Source of the DNA: an uncultured bacterium
GTDB lineage: Bacteria > Cyanobacteriota > Vampirovibrionia > Gastranaerophilales > JAILCC01
Direction of reading: 5' to 3'
DNA: 64,000 nucleotides
NCBI GenBank assembly: GCA_949283935.1
Contig: CASDUJ010000006.1
Coordinates: 62,001-126,000, forward strand
The stretch's first letter is position 1; every line of letters begins with the position of its first letter. The notes under the pieces are model-generated. The model had not been told where the DNA came from. It saw only the letters and a program-made list of their open reading frames with translations, and searched no databases. Position numbers and translations under genes: made by a program. Below are positions 4,314 through 60,258 of this stretch, piece by piece.

Positions 4314-5035
4314 TTTTCAAAATTCATATTTGTAATAAAAACATTATCTACATAATCTATTTCATTTATTCTATTATACATATCTAGAACTGGATTTTTC
4401 CCAATTATTTTGGTTACAATATAGATTTTTTCTTTATCGTCCATTCTATCACCTTTTGTGTGATTAATTTCAAGAATTTTGTCAAATTTATTACTTACAG
4501 CTCTTATAACATAAGGAATATTATCTGTTGCCACAATTAAAGTAGCTTTAATCGTAGCCGTTTTTTGAGTAAATTTTCGTAAAAATCCAGTTTCAAGTTT
4601 TCTAACTAAAATAAGTACAAACAAAGTTATCAAAGTCGCAACAGCTGCAAGTACAATAGAACCGCATCCGACAGCCATACCAATACTAGCTGTAGTCCAA
4701 AGAGTTGCAGCTGTAGTAAGTCCAAATACAGAAGAACCATGTCTTAGTACTGTGCCGCCTCCAATGAAACCTATACCTGTAAGAATTTGAGCTGCAATTC
4801 TAGCAGGATCGCCAAAAGCAACAGGATTTCCTCCTGCAGATATAGTAGGAAAAGCAAATATGGACAAAATTGTAAACACACAAGAACCCATACAAACCAA
4901 AATATGTGTTCTTAATCCAGCAAATTTACTTGTTAATTCTCTTTCAAATCCTATTGCAAAACCAAAAAGCACAGAAATTAAGACTCTTAAAGAAATATCT
5001 AAATAATAAGCACTATCTTGTAGTTGTAATTCCAT
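4310..5035 (-). CDS. mgtC: MgtC/SapB family membrane protein
   Basis: 241 residues. The N-terminal two-thirds is the MgtC membrane domain with several helices and the family hallmarks GFAIGFERE, GLRTHILVC, DPARIAAQILTGIGFIGGG and GLTTAATLW. A small cytoplasmic C-terminal domain (about 155-241) has an ACT-like pattern. In pathogens MgtC supports growth at low magnesium and inhibits the F-type ATPase; in other bacteria the role is less clear. It lies three bases after the DppC-like permease gene and overlaps the TPR gene, an uncommon operon partner for a peptide transporter. The family assignment is firm, the physiological role is not. Confidence 0.9.
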   Translation of the reverse strand: MELQLQDSAYYLDISLRVLISVLFGFAIGFERELTSKFAGLRTHILVCMGSCVFTILSIFAFPTISAGGNPVAFGDPARIAAQILTGIGFIGGGTVLRHGSSVFGLTTAATLWTTASIGMAVGCGSIVLAAVATLITLFVLILVRKLETGFLRKFTQKTATIKATLIVATDNIPYVIRAVSNKFDKILEINHTKGDRMDDKEKIYIVTKIIGKNPVLDMYNRINEIDYVDNVFITNMNFEK

Positions 5036-5038
5036 TAA

Positions 5039-6130
5039 TTATCTCCCATAGCTTTTCGGATCAAGTACATCACGAATTGTATCACCTATGAGGTTAAAAG
5101 ACAAAATAGTTACAAAAATCAAATAACCTGGGGTCAAAAGCCATGGTCTATATAATATATTAGTATATTCTTGTGCTTCTTTAAGCATATTTCCCCAACT
5201 TGCATCAGGTTGTTGAATTCCAAGCCCTAAAAAACTTAATCCTGATTCACCTAATATAAATCCAGGAACACTTAAAGTAATTGCAACAAGAACATAACTT
5301 GCCGTTTGAGGCAAAATATGTTTTGTAATAATTCTAAAAGAACTTGCTCCAATACTTTTAGCACTTTCAATAAATTCTAAATTTTTTATAGACAAAACCA
5401 TTCCTCTAACAACTCGGGCAAATCCTGCCCAACCTATAAAAGCAAGGATTACAATAATCAAAGTAAATCTTTGCGTACTAGTCATATTAGCAGGCAAAAG
5501 TGCAGCAAGAATAATTAACAAATAAAAACTGGGAATAGACATTATTGCTTCTGCAAAACGCATCATAACGTTATCTGTAATGCCGCCTACATAACCTGAA
5601 ATACCTCCATACAAAAGCCCTATTGGAAATGAAATAAATAAAGCTAAAAATCCTATTGTTAAAGAAATTTGTCCTCCAAAAAGCAATCGTGAAAAATTAT
5701 CTCTGCCATTTATATCCGCACCCAAAAGATATAATCTTCCTTTTTCATTATCTAAGCCTATCAAATGTCTATTAGTTTTAATTAATCCTAAAAATTTATA
5801 TTCAAAACCTTTAGCAAAAAATTTTATATAATATCTTTGAGATCTATCAGTTTTATAATCATTTGAAAATGTTTCAGGGTTAAAAGTACGTTTGTAATTA
5901 TATGTATATGGTTTAGAAAATTTACCTTCTGGGGTTATTACGTAAATTTTTGAAGGAGGAGCGTAAGACATATTTCTGTCACTAAAATTTTCCGGATAAA
6001 CTGCAAAAAAATTCGCAAATACTACTGAAATATAAAGCCCAAACAATACAATTAAAGAAACAAAAGCAAATTTGTCTTTCAAAATTTGTTTTATAGGATT
6101 TCTATTAATTTTAATTTTAGTTACAGTCAT
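5039..6130 (-). CDS. DppC/OppC-type ABC transporter permease
   Basis: 363 residues, an inner-membrane permease of the dipeptide/oligopeptide (binding-protein-dependent) type. One N-terminal helix (about 24-44) is followed by a long hydrophilic periplasmic segment of about 110 residues, longer than in most DppC proteins, and then five helices. The EAA loop that contacts the ATPase is visible as EFIESAKSIGASSFRIITKHILP. The C-terminus has the usual LGLGIQQPDASWGNML and DVLDPK motifs. It pairs with the DppB-type gene eight bases upstream. No ATPase genes (DppD/DppF) are in the window, so they must be encoded elsewhere. The substrate cannot be read from sequence. Confidence 0.9.
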   Translation of the reverse strand: MTVTKIKINRNPIKQILKDKFAFVSLIVLFGLYISVVFANFFAVYPENFSDRNMSYAPPSKIYVITPEGKFSKPYTYNYKRTFNPETFSNDYKTDRSQRYYIKFFAKGFEYKFLGLIKTNRHLIGLDNEKGRLYLLGADINGRDNFSRLLFGGQISLTIGFLALFISFPIGLLYGGISGYVGGITDNVMMRFAEAIMSIPSFYLLIILAALLPANMTSTQRFTLIIVILAFIGWAGFARVVRGMVLSIKNLEFIESAKSIGASSFRIITKHILPQTASYVLVAITLSVPGFILGESGLSFLGLGIQQPDASWGNMLKEAQEYTNILYRPWLLTPGYLIFVTILSFNLIGDTIRDVLDPKSYGR

Positions 6131-6138
6131 TTCGAAAA

Positions 6139-7107
6139 CTACTCCATAGTAACTCTAGGATCAACTATTTTCAAAAGTATATCGGCAATTAAATTTCCAA
6201 TAACTAACATTATAGATCCAATCATAAGACTAGCCATTACAAGATTTATATCAGATTTCATTACAGCTTCTAAAACTAGTCTACCTAAGCCAGGATACTG
6301 AAAAACATATTCAGTAAGTGCTGCCCCGCTTAATAATCCAGCAAATTCAAATCCTATAAGAGTTACCATAGGATTTATAGCATTACGAACGGCGTGTTTA
6401 TAAATTACTTTGTTTTCAGACAAACCTTTTGCCCTGGCAAGTTTTATGTAATCTGATTCTAAAACATCTAAAAGATTACCTCTCATTTGTCTTTGTAAAC
6501 CAGCTAAACTTAAAGTAAAAAGTACTAAAACAGGTAAGAAAAGATGATGAATTATATCGAAAATTTTATGAAATAAATTCATTTGAGAAAAATTAAAACT
6601 TGTAAGTCCTCCTATAGGAAACCAACCTGTTTTAACAGCCAAAACTAATAATAACAAAGCATAAAAAAATGAAGGAACAGCCATTCCAATAGAAGTAAAA
6701 ACAGTAATAATACGATCTGCCGGCTTTCGCCAATTAAGTGCTGCATAAATTCCCAAAGGAATTCCTACAAGCCAAGTTAAAATTATTGTAATTCCTGTCA
6801 ATAAAAGTGTATTAGGGATTCGTTCTTTTAATCTATCCGCAACTAATTCTCCTGAAGTAGAAACACCTAAATCACCTTTCAAAAAATTTCCACCCCAACG
6901 TAAATATTGTTTGTACAAAGGTAAATCAAGTCCAAGACGAATTTTTTCAGCTTCTAATGTTTGAGGAGAAATAGCAGGATTAAGTTTTAATTCACTTAAA
7001 GGATCAATAGGACTTAATCTAATTATAAAAAAACTTATCAAAGAAACTATAAAAAGTATAGGAATAGCATTTAATATTCTTTTTATTATGTATACCAAAA
7101 CAGACAT
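6139..7107 (-). CDS. DppB/OppB-type ABC transporter permease
   Basis: 322 residues, the first permease of the pair. The N-terminus (YIIKRILNAIPILFIVSLISF) and the segment IIRLSPIDPL are diagnostic of DppB/OppB. About six membrane helices follow, with the EAA loop at DYIKLARAKGLSENKVIYKHAVRNA and the typical C-terminus ending in DPRV. Its ATG overlaps the stop codon of the binding-protein gene by one base (TAATG), indicating coupled translation. It forms a heterodimer with the adjacent DppC-like protein by family analogy. Confidence 0.92.
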   Translation of the reverse strand: MSVLVYIIKRILNAIPILFIVSLISFFIIRLSPIDPLSELKLNPAISPQTLEAEKIRLGLDLPLYKQYLRWGGNFLKGDLGVSTSGELVADRLKERIPNTLLLTGITIILTWLVGIPLGIYAALNWRKPADRIITVFTSIGMAVPSFFYALLLLVLAVKTGWFPIGGLTSFNFSQMNLFHKIFDIIHHLFLPVLVLFTLSLAGLQRQMRGNLLDVLESDYIKLARAKGLSENKVIYKHAVRNAINPMVTLIGFEFAGLLSGAALTEYVFQYPGLGRLVLEAVMKSDINLVMASLMIGSIMLVIGNLIADILLKIVDPRVTME

Positions 7108-8963
7108 TATTCTATGTATATCTCCTCTAAATTATGTAAAACACCTCCAAGTGAAGTTGGGTCAAGATTTTTAAATTTTGTTCTTACAGCATAAATATTA
7201 AGCGGAGTGTAAAGATAAATAAATGGTCTATTGTCATAAACTATTTGTTGGTATTCATCATAAATCTTTTTGCGTTCTGAAAAATCAAGAATTGTAGCTC
7301 CTTTTGCAAAAAGTTCATCAAGCTTTTTCTCCCAAATTCTCAAATCAACTTTATTTGTAGCATCTTTTCCTTGCCTTAAATTAAACATATGCAAACTACC
7401 ATAAGAATACCAAACATTTGCTCCATTATTTGGTTCTAAAGAAGAACCAGTTAATCCCATAATTATTGCATCCCAATCTAGAGAACCTGTTAATTTCCCC
7501 ACAAGAACATTAAATTCTATTGGCTTAAAATTTACTTTCATTCCAAGTTCAGCTAAATCTTCTTTTATCATAACTCCTATAGATTCTCTTTCTATATTAC
7601 CTGCATTGGTCATAAGAGTAAATTCCACAATATTTCCCTCTTTATCATGCAAAATACCTTTTTCATCAGTGTAAAATCCTGATTCTTCCAATAATTTTCT
7701 TGCAAAATTTATATCTTTAGGATGTCCTTTTGCTAAATTTTCATTTAAAAAAATGGAAGATAAACCTTCAGCAGTATAAAGAGGCATTCCAACACCATTT
7801 AAAATATTCGCAACAATAAAATCTCTATCAATTGCATAATCTACTGCTTTGCGGAAATTATCATCATTAAACCATTTTTGTTTAATTGGGTTAACATAAT
7901 ATTTACCTTTTTCATTTTGTCTTCTGTTTAAATTAAAACTAACAAAAGTAGTTCCATCTCCTGCACCTAAATTATACATTTTGTAATCAGAATTTTTCTC
8001 TAAACTTTTAAATCTGGCTACTTGATTTCCTCTTACTGGTAATATGTCTAATTCCCCTGCTTCAAATTTTAGCACTTGATTGTTCAAATCTCCTACGATA
8101 TAAACTACATATTTATCTAAATAAGGTAAAACATTGTTTTTTGAATCTACCATAGAATAATTAGGATTTCTTTCAAAAATTACTCTTTGAGCAGGAACAT
8201 ATTCTTTTAGTTTAAAAGCTCCATTGGTTACTATTTCTTTAGGATTTGTAGTTACACCCCAAAATCTATTAAATTCTTCTTTTCCTTTATCGGTAACAGA
8301 TTTCATTATATGTTTTGGCGCAATGGCAAATCCTAACATTCTTAGAAAAGGAGCAAAAGGCTTTGGAGTAGTAAAACGAATAGTATATTTGTCTAATTTT
8401 ACACATTCAGGCATTTGGCCGTCTACTGTCATAACATCTCTTGTACTTGTATCTCCATAACCTTGTTTTATTATTGTATTGTAAGTAAATTCTACATCAT
8501 CTGCCGTAATTTCTTTTCCATCTGACCATTTTAATCCTTTTCTCAATGTTATTGTGTATTTTTTACCTGTAGAATCAATTTCAACTTTTTTAGCAAGTTT
8601 TGGAATAACTTCGCCAGTGTGAGGATCAGATGTAAACATTCCTTCAAACATAATTCCTGCAAGTGAACTCGATGTATTATCTTTTGAGTTCCATATATTA
8701 AATGTTTTTGGACCTTCTCCTATTGTAGAATTACTTAATGTACCGCCATATTTTCCCGTATTACCTCGCGAACGAAAATATTCAATTCCATTAATTTCTA
8801 TTAATTCATATTTACCTTTTGCATGTGAAATATGTTCTTGTACAAAATTTTGAGTTAAATTTGAATTGATTTCGACTTCAGGAATATCTTTGTGCAGGCA
8901 AGAAGTAGCCGCAAACACAAAAAATCCTAATATTAAAAGAATATAAATTACTTTTTTAGTCAT
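7107..8963 (-). CDS. peptide-type ABC solute-binding lipoprotein (family 5)
   Basis: 618 residues, an extracytoplasmic binding protein of the oligopeptide/nickel family. The N-terminal signal has a lipobox ending FAATSC, with Cys22 as the lipidation site, consistent with Lgt encoded elsewhere in the window. Family motifs are present: KLAKKVEIDSTGKKYTITLRKGLKWSDGKEI is split around the classic LR-x-G-x-W-SDG and TADDVEFTYN. It is about 70 residues longer than typical OppA. It is first in the operon with the permeases, mgtC and the TPR gene. No ribosome binding site precedes the ATG; the promoter suggests a leaderless transcript. The ligand is unknown. Confidence 0.9.
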   Translation of the reverse strand: MTKKVIYILLILGFFVFAATSCLHKDIPEVEINSNLTQNFVQEHISHAKGKYELIEINGIEYFRSRGNTGKYGGTLSNSTIGEGPKTFNIWNSKDNTSSSLAGIMFEGMFTSDPHTGEVIPKLAKKVEIDSTGKKYTITLRKGLKWSDGKEITADDVEFTYNTIIKQGYGDTSTRDVMTVDGQMPECVKLDKYTIRFTTPKPFAPFLRMLGFAIAPKHIMKSVTDKGKEEFNRFWGVTTNPKEIVTNGAFKLKEYVPAQRVIFERNPNYSMVDSKNNVLPYLDKYVVYIVGDLNNQVLKFEAGELDILPVRGNQVARFKSLEKNSDYKMYNLGAGDGTTFVSFNLNRRQNEKGKYYVNPIKQKWFNDDNFRKAVDYAIDRDFIVANILNGVGMPLYTAEGLSSIFLNENLAKGHPKDINFARKLLEESGFYTDEKGILHDKEGNIVEFTLMTNAGNIERESIGVMIKEDLAELGMKVNFKPIEFNVLVGKLTGSLDWDAIIMGLTGSSLEPNNGANVWYSYGSLHMFNLRQGKDATNKVDLRIWEKKLDELFAKGATILDFSERKKIYDEYQQIVYDNRPFIYLYTPLNIYAVRTKFKNLDPTSLGGVLHNLEEIYIE

Positions 8964-56099: not shown

Positions 56100-57323
56100 A
56101 TGATAATCCCTAGTATAGACATTATGGACGGAAAAGCTGTTCAATTAAAACAAGGCACGACAAAAGTATTAGAAAGGGAAAATGTTTTTGAATTAGCGGA
56201 ATATTTTTCACATTTTGGAGAAATTGCCATTGTTGATCTTGATGCTGCAATGGGGAAGGGAGATAATTTTGATTTAATAAAACAATTAATAAAAAAATAT
56301 CCAGCTAGAGTAGGTGGTGGAATAAGAACAGCAAAAAAAGCCAAAGAACTTATTGCAGCTGGAGCAAAAAAAGTTATCATAGGTACAGCAGCCTCAGAAG
56401 CGCTTTTAAGCGAACTTCCGAAAAACAATGTAATAGTAGCAATAGACACTAAAAATGGGAAAATAGTAACTCATGGCTGGTTAAATACTACTGAATTTAA
56501 ACCTGAAGAATATATTAATAAATTTGATAATTATTGTTCCGGATATCTTTACACTATTGTTGAAAAAGAAGGAATGATGGGAGGAACAGATTTAGATTCA
56601 ATAAAAAGAATAAGAGAACTTACAGAAAATGAAATTACAGCAGCTGGAGGAATTTGTACTTTAGAAGAAATAAAGCAAATAAATGATACTGGTGTAAATT
56701 GTCAACTTGGAATGGCTCTTTACACAGGTAAACTTGATATGACTGAAGCCTATTGTTCTTTATTAAAATTTAATGAACAAGGATTAATTCCTACAATAGT
56801 ACAAGATAAAGATTCTAAACAAGTTTTAATGTTAGCATATTCTAACAAAGATTCACTGGAAAAATCTTTTAAAGAAGGTCTTGCTACATATTATTCGCGT
56901 TCAAGAAAAGTATTATGGACAAAAGGAGCAACATCAGGAAATACTCAGAAATTAGTTAGCGTAAAAGCTGATTGTGACAAAGATAGTTTATTATTTACTG
57001 TTGAACAAAAAGGTGTAGCTTGTCATACTGGGGCATATTCATGTTTTGGCGAAAAAGAATTTGTTATTAAAGATTTAATTTCTGTATTAAAGCAAAGACT
57101 TGCCGAACAACCTGAAGGTTCATTTACAACAAAACTATTTAATGATGAATTTTATTTAAAAAGAAAAATCATGGAAGAAGCTTTTGAAGTAGTAAATTAT
57201 GAACAAGGTGATGGATTAGGTTGGGAAGTAGCTGATTTAACCTATTTTGTTTTAACTTTTATGGTAAAACATGGATTGGAAATTGAAGATGTATTGACTA
57301 ATTTAGCTTCCAGAAGAAAGTAA
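56100..57323 (+). CDS. HisA-HisI-HisE three-domain fusion
   Basis: 407 residues. Residues 1-225 are HisA, the ProFAR isomerase: PSIDIMDGKAVQL with Asp7, VGGGIRT, VAIDTKNG with Asp116, HGWLNTT and AAGGICTLEE. Residues 228-325 are HisI, the phosphoribosyl-AMP cyclohydrolase: TYYSRSRKVLW, KADCDKDSLL and the Cys ligands in GVACHTGAYSC. Residues 326-407 are HisE, the phosphoribosyl-ATP pyrophosphatase: KIMEEAFEVV and EVADLTYFVL. So three consecutive reactions (steps 2, 3, 4 of histidine synthesis) are on one chain. HisIE fusions are common; HisA joined to HisIE is not usual. AAGAGG precedes the ATG. hisD follows by four bases. Confidence 0.92.
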   Translation: MIIPSIDIMDGKAVQLKQGTTKVLERENVFELAEYFSHFGEIAIVDLDAAMGKGDNFDLIKQLIKKYPARVGGGIRTAKKAKELIAAGAKKVIIGTAASEALLSELPKNNVIVAIDTKNGKIVTHGWLNTTEFKPEEYINKFDNYCSGYLYTIVEKEGMMGGTDLDSIKRIRELTENEITAAGGICTLEEIKQINDTGVNCQLGMALYTGKLDMTEAYCSLLKFNEQGLIPTIVQDKDSKQVLMLAYSNKDSLEKSFKEGLATYYSRSRKVLWTKGATSGNTQKLVSVKADCDKDSLLFTVEQKGVACHTGAYSCFGEKEFVIKDLISVLKQRLAEQPEGSFTTKLFNDEFYLKRKIMEEAFEVVNYEQGDGLGWEVADLTYFVLTFMVKHGLEIEDVLTNLASRRK

Positions 57324-57327
57324 ATTT

Positions 57328-58569
57328 ATGAAAACGATAGCATACAAAGATTTACCAAAAGATTTTTTCAAATACAAAGAGTTTGAAGCAATATCAACGG
57401 TAGAAAAAATTATTTCTGATATAAAACAAAATGGAGATGATGCAGTAAAAAAATACTGCAAACAATTTGATGGAGAAATAAATGAACTTGAAGTAACTCA
57501 AAAAGAAATTGAAGAAGCATTTAAAAATGTAAATTCAAATGTTATAAAAGCAATAAAACAAAGTATTTCTAACGTAAAAATCTTTGCTCAAGCTCAATTA
57601 AATTCAATTAAAGAATTTGAAATTGAAAACAACGGAATGAAACTTGGACAAAAAATAATTCCAATAGAAAAAACCGGAGCGTATGTACCTGGAGGAAATT
57701 ATCCTTTACCATCTTCGGCAATTATGTCGTGTGTTCCTGCCAAAGTTGCTGGAGTAAAAGAAATAATAATGTGTTCTCCTAAAATCAAGGATATTACAAT
57801 AGTAGCTGGAATTTTAGCTGGAGCTGATAAAATTTTCAAAATAGGTGGAGTTCAAGCAATAGCAGCAATGGCATACGGCACACAAAGTATTCCAAAAGTA
57901 GACAAGATTACTGGACCTGGGAATAAATTTGTAACATATGCAAAGAAACAAATTTTTGGAAACTGTGGTATTGATTTTCTTGCAGGTCCTTCTGAAGTAA
58001 TGATCATTGCTGATAATATGGCAAAAGCAGAATTAATAGCTGCAGATATGCTTGCTCAATGTGAACATGATGTTGATGCAAATGCTATTTTAGTTACGAA
58101 TAATGAATTATTAGCAAAATCTGTTCAAGAAAAAATAAGTAAATTTCTTAAAAGTTTAAAAACAGCAGAAATAGCACAAAAGGCTTTAGAAAATTCTTAC
58201 ATAATAATAGTGAATAATTTAGACGAAGCAATCGAAATAGCTAACAGAAAAGCACCTGAACATTTAGAATTAATGACCAAAGAAAATGAAAATTTAAAAA
58301 AAAGACTAACTTGTTATGGTTCTTTGTTTTTGGGATCTTTGTCAGCAGAAGCAATAGGCGATTATTGTTCCGGCACAAATCATATTCTTCCAACAAACAA
58401 AGTAGCGAGGTATTCGGGGGGATTAAGTGTTTTTGATTTTGTTAAAATTTTAACTTACCAAGAAGCAATACCTCAAAAATCGCGAGAAATAACAAATACA
58501 GCCGCTTTTTTGGCAGAAACAGAAGGCTTATACGCTCACAAACTTGCATGCGAAATAAGATTAAATTAG
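57328..58569 (+). CDS. hisD: histidinol dehydrogenase
   Basis: 413 residues, zinc enzyme making histidine from histidinol in the last two steps. Motifs: EKTGAYVPGGNYPLPSSAIM, GVQAIAAMAYGTQSIPKVDKITGPGN, GIDFLAGPSEVMIIAD, QCEHDVDANA, APEHLEL and GDYCSGTNHILPTNKVARYSGGLSV. It is translated with the HisA-HisI-HisE fusion. Other his genes are not in the window. Confidence 0.96.
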   Translation: MKTIAYKDLPKDFFKYKEFEAISTVEKIISDIKQNGDDAVKKYCKQFDGEINELEVTQKEIEEAFKNVNSNVIKAIKQSISNVKIFAQAQLNSIKEFEIENNGMKLGQKIIPIEKTGAYVPGGNYPLPSSAIMSCVPAKVAGVKEIIMCSPKIKDITIVAGILAGADKIFKIGGVQAIAAMAYGTQSIPKVDKITGPGNKFVTYAKKQIFGNCGIDFLAGPSEVMIIADNMAKAELIAADMLAQCEHDVDANAILVTNNELLAKSVQEKISKFLKSLKTAEIAQKALENSYIIIVNNLDEAIEIANRKAPEHLELMTKENENLKKRLTCYGSLFLGSLSAEAIGDYCSGTNHILPTNKVARYSGGLSVFDFVKILTYQEAIPQKSREITNTAAFLAETEGLYAHKLACEIRLN

Positions 58570-58635: not shown

Positions 58636-60258
58636 ATGATAGTTTCTAATCGTCCAACGCAAGAAGAATTACTACAAACATTTGCGCCATTTATTAACAA
58701 GACGCAAATAAATAAGACTACTTCGTCGCCAAAATTGTCTCAAAATGATCAATTTGAAAAGAAATATGGAATAATATATACAGGAACAGCATTAGCTGCA
58801 GGTGCAGGAATTTTATACTTTTTACACAGAGGTGGTAAACTTTTTAATTTTACAAATTTTGTCAAAAAATATGCTACAAAATTAACAGCAAAAACAATTG
58901 AAAGTTTACAAAATGCAAAAACATCAAATATAGACTTTATTCAAAGAATAAAACTTAATACATCTTTAAAAATATCCAATGGATTAAAGAAACTTCAAGG
59001 ATTGGGAAATATAAATCCCGTAAAAGATATAGCAGCAGATACTTTTTTAAAGAAAATAAGGCTTAAACCTATGTTTGATAGAATTACAAAACTTTTCACT
59101 GCATATGGCAAAAATTTAGCTTTAAAGAAATATAAAATTCCTCAAGAAGATTTAGCAAAACTCCAAAAATCTTTTGAAGAAGCTGCGCAAATAATAGAAA
59201 AACTTCCTGCTAATTCATTAAAAAACTCTTCACCTAAAATTCTATCTGAAAAACTTCGAAAACTTTCCACATTTTCTCAAACAGAATTAGAAGACATTAT
59301 AAAAAATTTTGGCTCAAGATTTGATGAAATAGTTGATGTCCTCAATAAAAATTCTGAAACAGAATTTCTTAAAGTAATGAAAAATTTGAAAGGAAATTCT
59401 TTAAAACAAAAAATTATTGAAAAATTCAAAGAATTTGGAGATTTTATTCCGGAGAAAACGATGGAACCTTATAAAAAGAGAATTTTTTCTCCACTTTTCA
59501 AGTCTAAATCCAAAATTTCCAATAGTGTTATAGATTTACATAAAAATCTTACCAATTCTATAAACAATATTTTTTATGACAATTCTTTACAAAATTCAGA
59601 ATTACGTAAATGTTATTTAGATTTATGTGATTTAGCTGAAAAATTTAAAAATCCTAAAAAATATAATCTAAATAGAATAGATGTAAAAAAAGATTTGGTT
59701 AAAGCTTTAGAAACTGCTAGCAAAAAATTTCAAGAACTAAAACCTGAAACAAACAAATCAAAACTAGTGAAAGAACTATTAGATTTAGTACAAAATGACC
59801 AAAAAGGTGCTATAGAAGAAGCTATAAATATCTGCAAAATTTTAAAAGAACATAATCCTTCCTTATATATAAAATTAATTACTCAAAGAAATAAATTCCA
59901 AAAAAGCTTTAACAGAGCAATTGATTTTGAAACTGACAAAACTTACAGAAAACTTTTAGATTTTTCTTTACATTCGCTAGCAACTGATTTATTTACTCAA
60001 GCATTAGGAATTGGATCAATTTTGTACATTTTGATGAACAGTAAAAAAAGTAAAGAAGAAAAAATTTCTGCAAATCTGAAAACCGGAATTCCTGTTGCCG
60101 GAGGTTTGATTATAGGATTTTTATGTAATTTAAGACAAGTAGCTTCTGGACCTGGAGCATTATTTTTCGCAACAATAGCAGGACTTATTTTAAATAGAAT
60201 AGGTACGGTTACAAATAACTTTTATTTAAAAAGCCATAATTTAAATACAAAAGCTTAA
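58636..60258 (+). CDS. orphan helical membrane protein
   Basis: 540 residues, no family recognised. A Thr/Gln/Ser-rich N-terminal tail of about 45 residues precedes a first hydrophobic helix (about 46-64), then some 370 residues of charged, Lys- and Leu-rich helical sequence, and a C-terminal set of three hydrophobic segments (about 450-470, 485-500 and 508-525). Such a plan could span the cytoplasm between membrane anchors. GAAGGTAAGATAAA precedes the ATG. It is alone between hisD and the convergent glgA, with two bases to the latter gene's stop. Codon use is like the rest of the window. Confidence 0.7.
   Translation: MIVSNRPTQEELLQTFAPFINKTQINKTTSSPKLSQNDQFEKKYGIIYTGTALAAGAGILYFLHRGGKLFNFTNFVKKYATKLTAKTIESLQNAKTSNIDFIQRIKLNTSLKISNGLKKLQGLGNINPVKDIAADTFLKKIRLKPMFDRITKLFTAYGKNLALKKYKIPQEDLAKLQKSFEEAAQIIEKLPANSLKNSSPKILSEKLRKLSTFSQTELEDIIKNFGSRFDEIVDVLNKNSETEFLKVMKNLKGNSLKQKIIEKFKEFGDFIPEKTMEPYKKRIFSPLFKSKSKISNSVIDLHKNLTNSINNIFYDNSLQNSELRKCYLDLCDLAEKFKNPKKYNLNRIDVKKDLVKALETASKKFQELKPETNKSKLVKELLDLVQNDQKGAIEEAINICKILKEHNPSLYIKLITQRNKFQKSFNRAIDFETDKTYRKLLDFSLHSLATDLFTQALGIGSILYILMNSKKSKEEKISANLKTGIPVAGGLIIGFLCNLRQVASGPGALFFATIAGLILNRIGTVTNNFYLKSHNLNTKA

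Follow-up and report, generated by a model that had tools for sequence, protein, structure and literature searches.

A HisA-HisI-HisE fusion protein common to much of a bacterial class and its probable role in histidine biosynthesis

An open reading frame on the 64,000-nucleotide stretch of DNA that was analysed (the window) joins HisA-, HisI- and HisE-type domains on a single chain, and very probably encodes a trifunctional enzyme of histidine biosynthesis, with the activities of steps 2, 3 and 4 assigned by homology. In the window's genome, the fusion is most likely a working enzyme of these steps. The same fusion is common to much of one bacterial class, which we take to be Vampirovibrionia. 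It is also kept under purifying selection in relatives in which HisG was not found; we regard this as the most interesting observation of the study, and it suggests a role that is independent of histidine.

The fusion gene (positions 56100..57323, + strand) starts with ATG and encodes 407 residues plus a stop codon. The frame is uninterrupted, with zero internal stops, and a GAGG motif is located 6 bases 5' of the start codon. Comparison with Pfam-A placed His_biosynth (PF00977) at residues 1-212 (161.2 bits, cut-off 23.6), PRA-CH (PF01502) at residues 244-316 (112.5 bits) and PRA-PH (PF01503) at residues 324-405 (54.1 bits), the latter two likewise scoring above the gathering score. An earlier note on this DNA had read HisA, HisI and HisE on one 407-residue chain, which would physically link steps 2 to 4; the three Pfam domains and the intact frame bear out both statements. 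Based on PF00977, the strands of an AlphaFold2 model and the Foldseek match to PriA (3zs4), the HisA-like (beta/alpha)8 barrel is assigned to residues 1-217 (56100..56750, +). It is followed by a linker and the HisI (PRA-CH) domain (PF01502; residues 218-321, 56751..57062, +), and by the HisE (PRA-PH) domain (PF01503; residues 322-407, 57063..57320, +). From N- to C-terminus the domains thus correspond to steps 4, 3 and 2; the departure from reaction order remarked on earlier is in fact its exact reversal. Among the 25 NCBIfam models listed of 34 matching, none covered the whole chain. Directly downstream, separated from the fusion stop by a gap of 4 nt, follows hisD (histidinol dehydrogenase; 57328..58569, +), with 509.6 bits to PF00815 and 491 bits to TIGR00069 (cut-off 243.8). 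Further 3' of hisD, positions 58636-60258 (+) hold a 540-residue ORF without a Pfam match at an E-value of 0.001.

The window's genome comprises 1,727,421 bases on 42 contigs (completeness 97.28, contamination 2.4). PRA-CH and PRA-PH each have one match in it, both inside the fusion ORF. Two strong matches were obtained for His_biosynth, one being the fusion itself and the other located at positions 24421-25110 of contig C41, while three further matches reached at most 27.6 bits. The gene on C41 is HisF according to TIGR00735 (356.6 bits, cut-off 294.55). A separate hisA or hisIE, for which the earlier note had proposed a check, was accordingly not found in profile searches of this genome. IGPD (HisB) and HisG gave one match each, on other contigs. 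With HisG, HisB and HisF present and hisD adjoining, the pathway seems complete as far as it was searched (HisH, HisC and HisN lay outside the search), and the fusion unites its steps 2-4 in a single chain.

The HisI and HisE parts resemble canonical HisIE. The NCBIfam HisIE model (NF002747) matches residues 218-407 with 201.9 bits, over the cut-off of 187, the matched region here being fused behind HisA rather than forming a stand-alone chain. D291, C292, D293, D295, C308, H309 and C315 of HisI, an Asp/Cys/His set that we take to be the metal site, are all present in the window protein, as are the HisE acids E359, E360, E363, E376 and D379 (EExxE/ExxD), presumably functional residues.

The HisA part is more divergent from its reference models. 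The HisA equivalog model TIGR00007 matches residues 2-217 with 168.8 bits, under its cut-off of 228.95, and E. coli HisA exceeds the domain by approximately 28 residues. Asp7 (codon 56118..56120, +; aligned to E. coli HisA Asp7), Arg76 (gripper), Asp116, Trp127 (stacking), Thr152 and the phosphate-binding Gly motifs are all in place. Asp7, Arg76 and Trp127 are invariant in the 37 fusions of alignment A1; in a larger alignment of 60 fusions drawn from both order and class, which includes the decayed loci L038 and L039, they occur in 59, 59 and 58 proteins, respectively. Thr152 is found in 58 of the 60, the exceptions for Asp7 and Thr152 being L039 (genome G107) and L038 (genome G100).

Catalytic residues had earlier been ascribed to each of the three domains. 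This holds for HisI, HisE and Asp7 of HisA; the second Asp of HisA is replaced by Glu157 (codon 56568..56570, +), at the place of Asp176 in E. coli HisA. Glu is found at this position in all 60 aligned fusions, and in 79 of 79 readable sequences among 80 named loci that partly overlap the 60 (L102 is interrupted by a stop). Asp occupies the corresponding position in three stand-alone HisAs from the class (genomes G161, G313 and G289) and in five solved structures with printed alignments. Across 27 active-site positions, 71 of the 80 named loci are identical to the window protein and one differs at T278S; five (L093-L097) and two (L107 and L109) carry changes that are treated below. In Salmonella HisA the catalytic Asp of loop 6 is D176 (PMC9088769), and the D176A and D176V variants are tabulated as having no HisA activity (PMC7591586). 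As Glu retains an acid, ProFAR isomerase activity with Glu157 appears plausible on sequence grounds, albeit unproven. On the exaptation reading considered below, the conserved Asp to Glu exchange would point to an earlier shift in the mechanism of the fused HisA, common to the entire lineage.

An AlphaFold2 model of the fusion, computed from alignment A1 (37 of the 60 fusions, with L038 and L039 left out), reached a mean pLDDT of 92.0 and a pTM of 0.85. It contains all eight barrel strands, with a short fourth helix; the last HisA helix spans residues 214-220 and the first HisI strand starts at residue 230, leaving about nine residues between them. In a Foldseek search against the PDB, PriA from M. 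tuberculosis (3zs4) ranked first, PriA and HisA structures being matched with TM-scores to target of up to 0.83, the value for 3zs4. HisIE-type structures were matched as well, namely plant HISN2 (7bgm) and HisIE (6j2l). It should be noted that the model is a monomer and carries no information on assembly.

On this basis, a course of reaction can be proposed. The C-terminal HisE domain would remove pyrophosphate from PR-ATP. In the central HisI domain, opening of the adenine ring would turn PR-AMP into ProFAR. ProFAR would finally undergo Amadori isomerisation to PRFAR in the N-terminal HisA barrel, where Asp7 and Glu157 form the putative acid-base pair (Glu serving for the usual Asp). PRFAR would then pass on to HisF/HisH. 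Placing the three domains on one chain fixes their stoichiometry at 1:1:1, and may favour the hand-over of ProFAR.

The distribution of the fusion was followed in genome samples of order, class and phylum. In the order sample, 91 of 286 genomes match the protein, 89 of them over the whole fusion; in 88 of these 89 the fusion is free of internal stops, the exception being genome G271 with an in-frame TAA. Identity to the window protein within the order ranges between 55 and 83%, apart from G100 (46%) and G107 (39%). Order member G161 carries separate hisA and hisIE genes, and the sole match in G016 (66% complete) aligns with HisF. In the class sample, 150 of 382 genomes match, 85 in the order (including G161) and 65 outside it; the latter comprise 31 with the full fusion (families f8, f9 and f14), 25 of families f10, f11 and f12 that match in separate pieces only, and nine with weak or partial matches only. 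The phylum sample yielded 242 matching genomes out of 386 (44 from the order, 10 from the rest of the class and 188 from outside the class); for these 188, no full-length fusion match is among the matches listed, which follow E-value order with full-length matches first. Among 80 named relatives, the best of 247, most are Candidatus Gastranaerophilales MAGs and some are titled uncultured bacterium, Melainabacteria or Cyanobacteria bacterium; the order of the window's genome is inferred from these relatives. The alternative that a frameshift or an assembly artefact has joined hisA and hisIE, which the earlier note had raised as a check, is refuted by the recurrence of the fusion in 89 of 286 order genomes and in 31 class-mates outside the order, which is due neither to chance nor to assembly error; we consider its probability negligible.

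The HisG search covered each of the 89 order genomes with the fusion, in one set of 17 (eight without HisG) and one of 72 (none without), so that 81 of the 89 also carry HisG. The second set belongs to a search of 80 genomes, six of which were reached via loci and repeat others at the same coordinates, leaving 74 distinct ones. The order genomes in which HisG was not found are G092, G097, G110, G130, G190 and G202 of genus g32, and G100 and G107 of genus g28, all of them MAGs with a stated completeness of 93-99. Neither HisF nor HisB was found in these eight (the fusion aside, barrel matches were short and at most 27 bits), nor were TrpF or IGPS. Likewise, no HisG was found in a ninth genome, that of locus L107, where HisF and HisB were outside the search; L107 is placed with L109 (= G130) by both its protein and its neighbour genes. 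Two further genomes were not counted as pathway-less, namely G259 (without HisF and HisB, with HisG) and G267 (89% complete; without HisF, with HisB and a two-piece HisG). As nine genomes have the protein without HisG, histidine synthesis may not be its sole role.

Apart from those of G100 and G107, the HisG-less proteins form two clades, one with five members (L093-L097, i.e. G092, G110, G097, G202 and G190) and one consisting of L107 and L109. All seven ORFs are of full length without stops and retain every one of the seven HisA active-site residues that were checked. In window numbering, L093-L097 share R273, K278 and H279 in HisI and E379 in HisE, the HisI metal residues being kept, while L107 and L109 have in common the loss of HisI residues 292, 308, 309 and 315, their HisE acids being intact. 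Since the derived HisI changes are common to the clade members, they predate the species split within each clade. The surroundings of the fusion were inspected in 25 of the 80 named loci: hisD is missing in 7/7 HisG-less cases vs present in 18/18 others (this count refers to the locus only). The HisG-bearing L106 joins L107 and L109 with a support of 0.993 for two neighbour genes and 0.948 for the combined data, and the seven HisG-less proteins do not form one clade in any of five trees. This suggests at least two pathway losses, although the fusion tree puts L106 elsewhere and several splits are weak. In G107 (L039, 4970-6112) the HisA domain is decayed, with Asp7 changed to Asn and the Trp loop deleted, and none of the NCBIfam HisA models attains the threshold applied; in G100 (L038, 5008-6231) it is altered. 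HisI is better conserved in both. HisIE scores fall under the cut-off of 187 for L080 (G130; 165.9), L038 (169.3) and L039 (157.5), whereas L077 of the five-member clade, with 192.7, is still over it.

Pairwise dN/dS values were calculated for each domain, leaving out pairs with undefined dS. In the five-member clade they are 0.014-0.022 for HisA (dS 0.96-1.36); HisI gave 0.011-0.051, with one pair in ten undefined, and HisE 0.015-0.081. Values of dS around 1 or higher approach saturation, so that dN/dS is a rough measure here. For L107 vs L109 the values are 0.056, 0.048 and 0.142 for HisA, HisI and HisE, respectively (dS 0.72, 0.93 and 0.48). In all 11 within-clade pairs HisA shows the lowest dN of the three domains. 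Hence, the protein is under strong purifying selection in the two HisG-less clades (HisA dN/dS 0.014-0.056). For comparison, the 15 pairs of six other loci, five shown to have HisG and one (L101) with hisD beside the fusion but outside the HisG search, gave HisA values of 0.028-0.068, and G088 paired with G135 and G094 gave 0.145 and 0.146. Between G130 and the five-member clade the ratios are higher, with 0.074-0.108 for HisA, 0.133-0.136 for HisI (three of five undefined) and 0.133-0.309 for HisE. G100 vs G107 gave 0.319 for HisA, 0.083 for HisI and 0.207 for HisE.

What the protein does in the HisG-less genomes can be explained in two ways. It may have a function of its HisA barrel that does not depend on histidine, exerted besides or after histidine synthesis and kept after loss of the pathway, for example as a sugar-phosphate isomerase with remodelled neighbour domains and a substrate that is not supplied by HisG. 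In evolutionary terms this would be an exaptation, in which at least two Gastranaerophilales clades without HisG (six genomes tested also without HisF and HisB) keep the fusion as an isomerase outside histidine synthesis, combining strong purifying selection, an intact HisA active site and HisI and HisE sites that are rebuilt or inactivated. We hold this reading tentatively, at somewhat less than an even chance. It is favoured by the eight of 89 fusion genomes without HisG, HisF and HisB together with the L107 genome, by the low within-clade dN/dS in all three domains, by the complete set of HisA residues and the old, clade-wide changes in HisI, by the missing hisD, and by the placement of L106 with its implication of at least two losses. 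It is weakened by the lack of a candidate substrate, by the fact that all genomes concerned are MAGs, by dS values that approach saturation, by the higher dN/dS between the clades and by the position of L106 in the fusion tree; moreover, HisG could have an unrelated replacement. Alternatively, the protein could be a mere relic that is being lost in the HisG-less genomes, the fusion having no role beyond histidine, a reading we consider possible, if on the doubtful side. The decayed HisA of G107 and the altered HisA of G100 look like slow loss, the HisI metal ligands have disappeared from L107 and L109, and three HisIE scores are below the cut-off, all of which speaks for a relic and against a new function. 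Against a relic stand the within-clade HisA ratios (dS 0.72-1.36), which compare with those of the comparison pairs and lie below the values of up to 0.146 in pairs with G088, the seven uninterrupted ORFs, the consistently lowest dN in HisA and the HisIE score of L077.

For the window's genome, the tested pathway genes are present and a histidine-independent function need not be invoked. A further proposal, in which the HisA domain would combine HisA and TrpF activity in the manner of actinobacterial PriA, would agree with PriA being the nearest Foldseek structure and with TrpF (PF00697) not being found in this genome. Still, IGPS (PF00218) was not found there either, so that a TrpF activity would lead nowhere, and the hisA-trpF model TIGR01919 scores 95.8, far under its cut-off of 306.45; in a set of 23 genomes, TrpF occurs in five, and IGPS in just these five. 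A PriA-like TrpF role is therefore disfavoured and very improbable. The trifunctional enzyme of steps 2-4 remains the preferred reading.

Occurrence across much of the class, a related archaeal fusion and relatives that keep the protein without HisG, HisF and HisB go beyond the earlier note, which in sum is partly supported. The window protein shares with bacterial HisIE (PRA-CH/PRA-PH) and plant HISN2 the NF002747 score over the cut-off as well as the metal-site and EExxE/ExxD residues, but has a HisA barrel in front. With HisA and PriA it shares a complete (beta/alpha)8 barrel in the model, Asp7, Asp116, Arg76, Trp127, Thr152 and the Gly motifs; unlike these, it is shorter, stays below the TIGR00007 cut-off, carries Glu157 and is fused at its C-terminus. 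A HisA/F-type barrel joined to HisIE is described for cluster 787.1 of a 2024 survey (PMC11237513), where HisA/F-HisIE fusions are given for four metagenomic assemblies of DPANN and unclassified Archaea; going by that description, the likeness lies in the joined parts, whereas the present fusion extends across much of a bacterial class. The five his fusions named by Fani et al. 2007 (PMC1963479) in their enumeration do not include hisA-hisIE; fungal HIS4 (HisIE-HisD) and HIS7 (HisHF), discussed there, are likewise fusions of his enzymes but with other partners. Among the papers listed by our search of the open-licence literature, none describes the fusion in Melainabacteria or Gastranaerophilales. 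For Actinomycetaceae that lost the histidine and tryptophan pathways, PriA, a HisA-type enzyme with dual substrates (HisA and TrpF), is described as kept and changed (PMC5404923), which parallels the present case, although the eight genomes here are without TrpF and IGPS and have kept HisIE too.

The fusion thus adds HisA to the enzymes found joined to HisIE, and is a possible marker of descent within a non-photosynthetic cyanobacterial class. With its domains in reversed order, it is a natural system in which to test substrate hand-over across steps 2-4, and likewise the exchange of a catalytic Asp for Glu in a classic barrel enzyme. If the retained copies truly work without HisG, they would represent a pathway enzyme that took up another role once genes had been lost, and one lacking the TrpF activity of its actinobacterial counterpart.

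Several minor observations concern individual loci. In G271 (C117:9445-10671; loci L051 and L102) the TAA lies in the HisA part though HisG is present, indicating an error or a recent inactivation. Locus L040 of G161 (5028-7207) holds separate hisA, hisF and hisIE genes, with hisB and hisG on the same contig within about 6 kb; its HisA has the canonical Asp, and the fusion was perhaps replaced by a foreign operon. G004 contains a third strong His_biosynth barrel (C54:8934-9605, 125.2 bits) besides HisF and the fusion, on the same contig as TrpF. Each of the 25 loci inspected for neighbouring genes (L093-L117) has the fusion flanked by genes for a polysaccharide pyruvyl transferase (PF04230) and a DUF374 protein (PF04028), which lie immediately upstream of the fusion and downstream of either the fusion or hisD.
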